64,000 nucleotides of DNA from Streptomyces sp. NBRC 110028 (lineage in GTDB: Bacteria > Actinomycetota > Actinomycetes > Streptomycetales > Streptomycetaceae). The notes under the pieces were generated by a model. It saw only the letters and a list, made by a program, of their open reading frames with translations. It did not search any database and was not told where the DNA came from. The stretch is taken from the NCBI RefSeq assembly GCF_001417735.1, contig NZ_BBUZ01000022.1:496001-560000 (forward strand), written 5' to 3'. The position numbers were made by a program, and so were the translations under genes. The first letter of the stretch is position 1; each line of letters begins with the position of its first letter. Below are positions 25,807 through 50,518 of this stretch, in pieces.

Positions 25807-25856
25807 AATGTGCCTCCTGTAGAGGTGGGTCATTTTCCTGATCACGAAGGTTCTAG

Positions 25857-26015
25857 TGCCGCGTCAGCCAAGGTTCACCCCGCTCGCCGCCCTGGCACGG
25901 CCATCTGCGGCGTTGCCGAATCGACCGAGTAGGCCCACTACGAGGCCGATCCGGCGCCTTGCATCTGACCGCACCAGGACGCCTCGCTACCGGGCAAACC
26001 TTGGCTGACGCGGCA
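25857..26015. mobile_element. 159-bp MITE, copy 1, flanked by CTAG
   Basis: The ends are perfect 19-bp inverted repeats (TGCCGCGTCAGCCAAGGTT at 25857-25875; its complement at 25997-26015). CTAG stands on both sides (25853-25856 and 26016-26019), as expected for a 4-bp target duplication of the CWAG kind used by IS5-group elements. The interior has no transposase frame. A second copy with a single mismatch lies at 49945-50103. The right-hand CTAG supplies the TAG stop of the helicase remnant. A full-length parent element must be elsewhere or lost. Confidence 0.92.
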
Positions 26016-26708
26016 CTAGGCAGCCGCGTCGAACGAGGACGTCCGCGCGGTCGCGCGCCGGGCGGCCGAAGCGGGGCTGCGTCGGCCGCGTGAGGCCGCG
26101 CTGTGCTCACGCCGCTCGGCCACCGGCGCGGTGATCGTCACGGGGATGCCGGAGGTCTGGGGCACGATGCCGCCGGCCGCCATGAGGCAGGTCATGTCGC
26201 GGCGCTGGTCGGGGGTGACCAGGGTGACGACGCTGCCGGACTCCCCGGCCCGCGCGGTACGGCCGCTGCGATCAAGGTAGTCCTTGCGGTCGGTCGGCGG
26301 GTCGACGTTGACGACGAGGTCGGGGTAGTCGACGTGGATGCCGCGGTCCGCGACGTTCGTGGCCACGAGCACGGTGACGTGCCCGGTCTTGAACTGGGCC
26401 AGGGTCCGGGTGCGCTGCGTCTGTGACGTGCCGCCGTGCGGGGTGGCGGCCCGGACACCGCTGTTCAGCAGATCCTGCGTCAGCCGGTCGACGGCGTGCT
26501 TGGTGTCCAGGAACATGATCACTCGGCCTTCGCGCGCTGCGATCTGCGTCGTCGTCCGGTGCTTGTCGGCGCCGTGGACGTGCGGCACGTGGTGCTCCAT
26601 CGTGGTGACCGCGCCTGCGGACGGGCCGACGGAGTGGACGACGGGGTCGGCGGGGCTGTCGGTCCGGCGGGGGCGGGAAATGCGGCCGTTCGTACGTGTG
26701 GGGTTCAT
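26016..26708 (-). pseudogene. DEAD-box RNA helicase lacking its ATP-binding domain
   Basis: The 230-residue frame has a short N-terminal tail (MNPTRTNGRISRPRRTDS) joined directly to the second RecA domain of a DEAD-box helicase (DPVVHSVGPSAGAVTTMEHH, GRVIMFLDTKHAVDRL, VTVLVATNVADRGIHVD, SGRTARAGESGSVV). Motifs Q, I (Walker A), Ia, II (DEAD) and III are missing. Motif VI reads DRSGRTARAG instead of HRxGRTxRxG, and the normal segment before GIPVTITAPV is shortened. The frame stays open, so this is an in-frame internal deletion of roughly 200 residues. The protein cannot hydrolyse ATP alone. It lies downstream of the cold shock gene, where an intact helicase is expected. Its TAG stop lies in the MITE target site. 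Confidence 0.8.
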
Positions 26709-26972
26709 TCAGAACCTTCCTTGACGCGGCACGCATCAAGGAATTCCCGCAGCAGAAGAGTGGCGCGGGGAATCACAAGAACGGACCGAATGGAGCGCGA
26801 AAGTGAATCTGGCTTGCGGCGAATCTGGTGCGGGCGCAGGCGATGAAATGTGTGACGTCATGGGGGCGTGAAATCCAGGACGTCGACCGGTATGGCTCCG
26901 AAGGGGCCCGCTCCCCGGAGCGGGGGCCACGGTCGGCGCCATCCCGCAGGTGAAACCTCGGAGGCTGCCCGT
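26709..26972 (-). other. leader region before the helicase remnant
   Basis: This region between the helicase remnant and the cold-shock terminator has no coding frame of its own. GGAATTCC (26739-26746) and a nearby GGGAATC word form weak dyads. The AT content is above average, suggesting a promoter and a long 5' leader such as cold-regulated helicase genes often have. Confidence 0.3.
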
Positions 26973-48792: not shown

Positions 48793-49944
48793 GTGAACGA
48801 GAGAGCAGTCGACCCGGACATGATCCAGGCCCGCACCCATCTGGACCAGCCCTATCCCCCCGCGCCGTTCGCGGCCGGAGTGCCCGTGCTCATCCTGGGA
48901 GCGGTCGCGGTCATCGCCTTCGTCACCGGAGACGGATCGAGCTGGCTGCCGCTGCTCGCCGTCGGCCCGGCGCTGGCCGCCGCCGCGTGCCGCCCGTGGA
49001 CGGTGCTGCGGATCGGCTTCCTCGCCGTCGCGCTGGGCGCGCTGCTCGGCGCCTGGCTGGACGCGCCGCTCCACGGGCGGGCCGTCGTGCTGTCCACGAT
49101 CGTCGCCGTGACCCTGGCCAGCGGCCTGTCCGGTGTGCTGCGCAGGCGCCGGGAACGGGTGCTGGCCGCGGTCCGCTCGGTCGCCGAGGCCGCGCAGAAC
49201 GCGCTGCTGCGGCCGGTGCCCGCCCGGGTCGGCCAGTTCCAGGTGGCGGTCCGCTACAGCGCCGCCGCGGCGGAGGCCCGGGTGGGCGGCGACCTGTACG
49301 CCCTGGTGTCCACCCCGTACGGGGTCCGGCTGATCGTCGGCGACGTGCGCGGCAAGGGACTGCCCGCGGTGTCCACCGCCGCGCTGGTGCTGGGGGTGTT
49401 CCGGGAGGCCGCGTACGACGAACCGCACCTGCTGGACGTGGTCGGCCGGATCGAGCGCAGCCTCGCCCGCAATCTCGCTCCCGACGACTTCGTCACCGCC
49501 GTCGTCGCCGGATACCCCCGCGAGGGGCGCATGGAGATCGTCAACTGCGGACACGCGCCGCCGCTCCTGATCGGCCCGGCCGGTGCGGTCGTGCCCGTCG
49601 AGCCGGTGCGCCCGGCGCCGCCGCTGGGCCTGGCCTCGCTGGGCGGCGAGGCGCCGAGCCTGCACGTGGTGCCGTTCGCCGACGACGACCAGATGCTGCT
49701 GTACACCGACGGCGTCATCGAGGCGCGCGACCACGGCCGGGCGTACTTCCCGCTGGCCGAGCGGGTGCCCGGGCACGTGTGCGACGACCCGTCACGGACC
49801 CTCGCCGGGCTGCACGACGAACTGCTGGCCCATGTGGGCGGGCGGCTGCACGACGACGCGGCGCTCCTGCTGCTGCGCAAGCCCGCCGCGGACCGGGCGG
49901 AGCGGACGGCCGACCCCACCCGGCCCGCCCGTACCGGCACCTAG
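48793..49944 (+). CDS. membrane SpoIIE-type PP2C phosphatase
   Basis: This 383-residue protein has three to four N-terminal membrane helices (AGVPVLILGAVAVIAFVTGD to about residue 115) and a cytoplasmic PP2C/SpoIIE domain with metal-binding sites: GGDLYALV, GDVRGKGLPAVS, NCGHAPPLLI, YTDGVIEARD, HDDAALLLLR. Such enzymes dephosphorylate anti-anti-sigma factors and so activate SigB/F-type sigma factors. GTG 48793 is the start. Its TAG stop lies in the CTAG target site of MITE copy 2. Confidence 0.92.
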   Translation: MNERAVDPDMIQARTHLDQPYPPAPFAAGVPVLILGAVAVIAFVTGDGSSWLPLLAVGPALAAAACRPWTVLRIGFLAVALGALLGAWLDAPLHGRAVVLSTIVAVTLASGLSGVLRRRRERVLAAVRSVAEAAQNALLRPVPARVGQFQVAVRYSAAAAEARVGGDLYALVSTPYGVRLIVGDVRGKGLPAVSTAALVLGVFREAAYDEPHLLDVVGRIERSLARNLAPDDFVTAVVAGYPREGRMEIVNCGHAPPLLIGPAGAVVPVEPVRPAPPLGLASLGGEAPSLHVVPFADDDQMLLYTDGVIEARDHGRAYFPLAERVPGHVCDDPSRTLAGLHDELLAHVGGRLHDDAALLLLRKPAADRAERTADPTRPARTGT

Positions 49945-50103
49945 TGCCGCGTCAGCCAAGGTTCACCCCGCTCGCCGTCCTGGCACGGCCATCTGCGGCG
50001 TTGCCGAATCGACCGAGTAGGCCCACTACGAGGCCGATCCGGCGCCTTGCATCTGACCGCACCAGGACGCCTCGCTACCGGGCAAACCTTGGCTGACGCG
50101 GCA
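49945..50103. mobile_element. 159-bp MITE, copy 2, flanked by CTAG
   Basis: It is identical to 25857-26015 except for one base (T instead of C in the CTCGCCGxCCTGGC segment). It has the same perfect 19-bp inverted ends and CTAG on both sides (49941-49944 and 50104-50107). The left CTAG supplies the stop of the phosphatase gene; the right one gives a TAG on the minus strand. The near-identity of the copies means recent movement or gene conversion. Confidence 0.92.
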
Positions 50104-50518
50104 CTAGCCGAAGTCGGCGATCGGCTCATGGAAGAGATCGTGCACGGCCTGGTCGGACGTACACAGGGACAGCTGGACCGGGATGGTCGGACGCGCCCAG
50201 GTCCGCGCCGACCGCGCTGACCGGCGTCAGGACGCGGACTCGATCTCGCCGATGACCCGCGGCCGCACCGCCCCGCAGGCGCTGCGCCCCCGCCCGGCGC
50301 AGCACGGCGGCGACGAGTCGTACGTCATGGAGTCGCCGCGCTCGGACCGTACGGGCGTGATCAGCACGCCGCAACCCGGATACGGCCATTCCGGCGCCTG
50401 CCACCCGGGTGGATCCCGGCGGGCCGCTGGCGTGGTGCGGACCAGGGCGGGCGGTGGGTTCCTAATGTCGGGGTCACGGCAATGGGCCGACCGTCCAGAA
50501 ACCACAGGTGGGTGTGGA
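50104..50518 (-). other. possible gene end on the minus strand, then upstream region of the NHL gene
   Basis: Reading the minus strand to the TAG at 50106-50104, the last 30 codons look protein-like (RPTIPVQLSLCTSDQAVHDL, then FHEPIADFG), but the frame is stopped at 50227-50229 and no start is seen. It may be the 3' end of a lost gene. The rest up to 50518 contains only overlapping frames without clear coding character. Confidence 0.3.

Follow-up and report, generated by a model that had tools for sequence, protein, structure and literature searches.

Two copies of a small MITE in the 64,000-nt window analysed here each coincide with the stop codon of a gene. The locus raises the question of why a mobile element should lie exactly at the ends of its host genes, and whether a preference for the tetranucleotide CTAG is enough to bring it there. 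Feature coordinates are positions in this window, and the 161-bp MITE is referred to as family A.

Structure of the element

Family A is a multicopy MITE of 161 bp that contains no transposase gene. Both window copies have perfect 20-bp terminal inverted repeats and CTAG on either side, as a first-pass annotation of this DNA had described. That annotation gave a length of 159 bp between the CTAG flanks; the flanks stand, and the mobile unit is most likely 161 bp long and bordered by a duplicated TA. The features of the two copies and of their host genes are the following.

25856-26016, + strand: MITE copy 1, mobile unit of 161 bp from G to C
25853-25856 and 26016-26019: CTAG flanks of copy 1
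25854-25855: left TA of copy 1, probable duplicated target; host C at 25853
26017-26018: right TA of copy 1, probable duplicated target; host G at 26019
25856-25875, + strand: left terminal inverted repeat of copy 1, 20 bp
25997-26016, - strand: right terminal inverted repeat of copy 1, 20 bp
25894-25979, + strand: core palindrome, common to MITEs with other ends
26016-26708, - strand: Helicase_C-domain ORF, 230 aa; stop TAG at 26018-26016, third base from MITE copy 1
49944-50104, + strand: MITE copy 2, 161 bp; target TA at 49942-49943 and 50105-50106
49941-49944 and 50104-50107: CTAG flanks of copy 2
48793-49944, + strand: SpoIIE-domain ORF, 383 aa; stop TAG at 49942-49944, third base from MITE copy 2

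Just upstream of the helicase ORF, the sequence at 26713-26731 also resembles the MITE end, from which it differs by 3 mismatches; it is perhaps a decayed older end.

Preservation of the stop codon

The element presents a G at both ends. TA followed by this G gives TAG, so a stop is restored regardless of which end faces the gene, and TAG and TAA stops are both preserved. At copy 1 the MITE provides the third base of the stop, and the claim that insertion at TAG left the protein of the helicase remnant unaltered holds. The same pattern had been claimed for both window copies, and copy 2 likewise lies on a stop, that of the SpoIIE-domain ORF. In the strain's own genome, stops are called on both strands at the CTAG of five copies, and both are preserved. 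One copy (L056) has the target ATAA. The MITE of another family, family C, begins with A, and TA followed by A would give TAA.

Several of 10 host proteins have Pfam domains that reach nearly to the protein end. For the host gene at L046, 80 loci were found; in the 20 relatives compared the end codon is identical, but the flanks are too diverged to show the junction, and no empty allele of a close relative showing it was found. The nearest named relatives of one host protein are from Streptomyces, with 98% in S. hygroscopicus.

Copy number

The 19-base end was searched against the strain's own genome, which comprises 8.9 Mb in 96 contigs. It gives 52 forward and 52 reverse matches, 104 ends within 3 mismatches, and the reversed-pattern control gives 0. 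Pairing of the ends on the DNA examined around them, with a spurious long pair (L038) and a lone match (L042) set aside, yields at least 51 copies of family A; BLAST with the element scored 40. The distance between the CTAG flanks is 159 bases in 43 of the 51 copies, 160 in one, 185-187 in five and 48-49 in two. Twenty-six of 43 copies are near-identical, agreeing at 160 or 161 of 161 bases.

The 100 ends listed of the 104 revealed no autonomous element with identical ends; apart from the match at window 26713, all of them pair into elements shorter than 200 bases. In a genus search of 295 genomes, this one included, 11 contain a MITE end within 1 mismatch. Four of the 30 genus loci inspected are one-ended, and a protein search of these four gave no IS630 match. 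Rfam searches of 8 loci returned a single match, far under the gathering score.

Target site

The first-pass annotation considered CTAG to be rare in the coding DNA of GC-rich Streptomyces. It is rare in this GC-rich genome, and the window contains 10 CTAG sites, against 71 expected from shuffles. The annotation would have taken flanks other than CTAG as evidence against its reading. Such copies exist but are few: 44 of the 50 targets reconstructed in the strain's own genome are CTAG, and the other six are CTAA (2), ATAA (1), TTAG (1) and decayed sequences (2).

In some copies the bases outside the TA are not the same on the left and on the right, with ATA...TAA at L056, TTA...TAG at L061 and CTA...TAA at L044. 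A 4-bp duplication of CTAG would need mutations in these copies, so TA is the simplest reading, and other MITE ends that are occupied by family A carry a single TA when free. Judging from these junctions, the duplicated target is most likely TA and not CTAG. An IS481-type insertion with a 6-bp direct repeat NCTAGN was rejected, as the outer bases differ (second copy at L031, and L056).

At L040, L061, L189 and L190, family A has inserted into the end, CTAG or TTAG, of a MITE of another family, and the copy at L071 adjoins a B-type end. Nesting in the end of an older MITE means that one stop codon can be struck repeatedly.

A candidate IS630 partner

The strain's own genome contains one IS630 between CTAG flanks (L116:847-2078), which encodes a 390-aa transposase. 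The ORF matches NCBIfam transpos_IS630 at 151 bits (cut-off 100) and PF13358 at 41 bits (cut-off 28.6). The first-pass annotation had suggested looking for a full-length IS with the same ends. None with identical ends was found; the nearest is this IS630, one end of which agrees with that of the MITE in 17 of 20 positions. In another genome of the genus (G228), a 205-bp element (L205:3334-3538) combines one MITE-type end with one IS-type end, a sign that both end types belong to one system. A plasmid search with one end gave 14 records, one of which has an annotated IS630 transposase at the end. At E<=0.001, 242 of the 295 genomes contain a match to the transposase, whether close or distant.

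IS630 relatives were reconstructed at 23 of 30 loci, the other 7 being without an end pair, with preference given to pairs with TA on both sides. All 23 insertions are at CTAG and 12 of them are on a stop. By the similarity of its ends and target, family A is a non-autonomous MITE of the IS630/Tc1-mariner type, most likely mobilised by an IS630 transposase. IS701 (PF13546, DDE_5) was discarded as partner: it has 4 matches in the strain's own genome, none with MITE ends in the flanks examined.

The IS630 copies at L122-L151 have apparent lengths of 1.2 to 2.5 kb, so many may hold passenger DNA beside the transposase. On a Streptomyces flavofungini plasmid (L114:2501-4405), an IS630 transposase and an annotated aminoglycoside-phosphotransferase-family gene lie within one CTAG-flanked end pair.

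Related MITE families

A scan of the family A loci for inverted ends of any sequence flanked by TA gave 69 candidates, of which 61 are family A. Six of the 8 others form three further families, and 5 of these 6 are at CTAG. MITE families B and C, whose ends differ from those of family A, occupy a stop in 5 of 10 and 6 of 8 cases (11/18) among the matches listed; these are pairs found on the DNA examined, with 100 of 234 matches listed, mostly chance, and with L228 (contig end) and L233 (decayed flank) counted as non-stop. The core palindrome is common to families A, B and C. Element or core matches at E<=0.001 occur in 166 of the 295 genomes, with two candidates scored per genome. The core (window 25894-25979) is also seen in copies without family A ends, at loci L081-L109.

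Excess of stop codons at occupied sites

For the comparison of occupied and free CTAG sites, elements were removed in silico and both kinds of site were classed on the same sequence. Genes were called by a purpose-written codon-score caller, whose rough starts feed the distance bins. In the tabulation that the first-pass annotation had proposed, a stop codon is found at 41 of 50 occupied sites in the strain's own genome and at 37 of 118 free CTAG sites, so the association is well above that of CTAG in general. The corresponding values are 19/26 and 16/75 in the genus member G069, and 7/11 and 12/38 in G228 (p 0.08 alone). The three genomes pooled give a Mantel-Haenszel odds ratio (OR) of 8.5 (p 1.6e-14), against a free-site background drawn from stretches chosen for holding a copy.

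The occupied counts take in non-CTAG and decayed targets (6/50, 5/26 and 1/11 in the three genomes); for CTAG targets only, 38/44, 17/21 and 6/10 are on stops. Fifty of the 51 copies are counted, as the TA-aware pair finder missed L079, itself a stop in an earlier classing. The 26 and 11 sites of G069 and G228 are end pairs on the DNA examined, which leave out one-ended copies (e.g. L204, L211, L215) and some 3-mismatch ends.

The effect persists after controls for GC, start distance, -10-like sequence, gene-caller settings and neighbouring bases. A logistic model with coding, start distance, flank GC, TAGNNT and genome gives a stop OR of 7.0 (p 6.7e-6, n 306). When 2 free sites within tRNA genes are left out, along with 17 that coincide with the ends of other MITEs (11 of these 17 being stops), the OR is 9.8, and it ranges from 9.3 to 11.5 across four gene-caller settings. 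Against GC-matched intergenic sites it is 5.8-12.6. With neighbouring-base context in the model it is 9.4; sites at the ends of other MITEs, 9 of them occupied and 17 free, were excluded from this analysis. The 2 free CTAG sites inside tRNA/tmRNA genes were placed by ARAGORN (L031-L080, L182-L221, excised coordinates).

A simple explanation is the one in the first-pass annotation, that CTAG-specific insertion is sufficient because CTAG is mostly found at stops. Consistent with it, the window contains few CTAG sites and almost all insertions are at CTAG. The free sites contradict it: stops make up only 65 of the 231 free CTAG sites in the three genomes and 7 of 37 in further stretches, which had been picked without regard to family A, 16 of them for other MITEs and 4 freely. 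With only 19-31% of free CTAG sites being stops, CTAG preference alone is insufficient and a second factor is needed. The stop excess is real and the sufficiency of CTAG is refuted; we give this explanation almost no credence.

Origin of the stop-codon excess

We think it likely that an IS630-type MITE inserts into the TA of CTAG, that the stop is rebuilt, and that purifying selection then causes the excess; selection would probably supply the part that goes beyond CTAG preference. An IS630-family transposase, acting in trans, would excise the MITE at its 20-bp ends, and the MITE would enter the TA of a CTAG, with duplication of the TA. A gene reading into the element from the TA of its TAG or TAA stop would meet TA followed by G, leaving the protein unchanged. 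Insertions within or between genes would be harmful more often and would be lost, while those at stops would have a low cost and hence be retained. Two observations point to selection: older copies are on stops in 16 of 17 cases and younger ones in 19 of 26 (raw counts), and longer IS copies with the same CTAG target also lie in convergent gaps (5/23).

The signs expected from selection against promoter damage are weak. In the model, occupancy is predicted neither by TAGNNT (OR 1.3, p 0.56) nor by a start codon close by (OR 0.61, p 0.17). TAGNNT fits 5 of 14 occupied non-stop CTAG sites and 60 of 145 free intergenic ones, and the occupancy of far versus near intergenic CTAG gives p 0.078. Occupied stops are hardly depleted within 50 bp of the next gene (6/67, compared with 9/65 free stops). 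CTAG sites in a 3'-UTR-like position are occupied less than stops (5/25 vs 67/121, OR 5.0, p 0.0017); they should be almost as harmless as a stop, and their under-use counts against selection acting alone.

The preference for stops even over 3'-UTR-like CTAG and at matched GC, together with the weak signs of selection, would be expected if a transposase or host factor preferred stops or gene ends beyond CTAG, for example through a DNA structure linked to transcription. We regard such active targeting as possible but rather unlikely. Among stops, the sequence within 2-6 bases of CTAG weakly predicts occupancy (cross-validated AUC 0.66-0.68, equalled by 0-1 of 100 permutations), which indicates some target preference beyond CTAG. 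The stop effect stays with this context in the model, so the context does not give the mechanism. Dyad symmetry and the folding of +-40 bases are alike at occupied and free stops, which speaks against targeting. Over the 60 bases downstream, folding is slightly stronger at occupied than at free stops (p 0.022, uncorrected). The related IS630 copies have a lower stop share (12/23), and we know of no mechanism for the targeting of stop codons. In its specific form, to which we give the same minor weight, the IS630-type transposase of the group, alone or with a host factor, would be guided to stops, and the terminal purine (G or A) of the MITE families would always rebuild the stop. If this were true, the stop codon would be a common, reusable landing pad for selfish DNA.

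Copies could also be kept by positive selection, if the hairpin were useful after genes as a terminator or mRNA stabiliser. The RNA fold of the whole element is very stable (-97.8 kcal/mol, z -8.5 vs shuffles), and a comparison of 22 core sequences shows 10 of 20 predicted pairs changed on both sides with pairing kept. The arms of a palindrome may, however, keep their pairing by template switching. There is also no marked orientation to the gene (18 vs 13 of 31 single-stop copies, raw counts), the near-identity of 26 of 43 copies is as after a recent burst, and the core is found without these ends as well. A selected function of the hairpin therefore appears very improbable. Insertion at CTAG followed by purifying selection is the reading that we prefer.

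Relation to known systems

Tenzen and Ohtsubo reportedly found in 1991 that IS630 of Shigella sonnei prefers the TA in CTAG. This element belongs to the family of the candidate partner and has a like target; it is autonomous, whereas the MITE is not, and a preference for stop codons did not appear in the accessible material on it.

The comparisons that follow refer to the accessible parts of the papers cited. Elements of the IS630/Tc1-mariner group duplicate TA (PMC2170065). Among them, ISY100 resembles family A in its TA duplication by cut-and-paste, but is autonomous and has a general TA target (PMC2170065). RUP of Streptococcus pneumoniae is a MITE of ~100 bp with a TA target, thought to be moved by IS630-Spn1 (PMC3049150, PMC2229807). 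It comes from another organism and has another sequence, and is like family A by type alone. An excess of pneumococcal RUP and IS elements between convergent genes was ascribed to selection by the authors (PMC3049150); CTAG or stop-codon landing of RUP is not mentioned in the accessible parts of PMC3049150 and PMC2229807.

In Rhodococcus equi, the CTAG target of TnRErm46 supplies the TAG stop of some genes, which are left uninterrupted (PMC6794481). TnRErm46 differs from family A as a 6.9-kb IS481-family transposon with the direct repeat NCTAGN, described in that text as single cases without a comparison to the CTAG background, and its IS481 ends look different from the MITE ends by eye (PMC6794481). 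MITEPsy1 of Pseudomonas syringae is, like family A, a short MITE (100 nt) found at CTAG or YTAA, but it has a 4-nt duplication and ends that its authors relate to ISPsy2, not IS630 (PMC3189936).

A literature search, largely of papers outside subscription and in part of excerpts, gave no description of family A and no counted stop-codon preference. A CTAG-preferring IS630, TA-duplicating MITEs and stop-sparing insertion at CTAG (TnRErm46) are already known.

Implications

Selfish DNA in compact bacterial genomes needs harmless landing places, and a CTAG target together with a terminal G makes the stop codon such a place. About one in five CTAG stops of the strain's own genome is occupied, with 41 found and ~170 free (a rough extrapolation from 7 in 0.37 Mb). 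The pattern is measurable and present in three MITE families, and selection and targeting can be directly tested against each other. A mini-IS630 of the family A type could be used to tag the 3' ends of genes with the protein unaltered.
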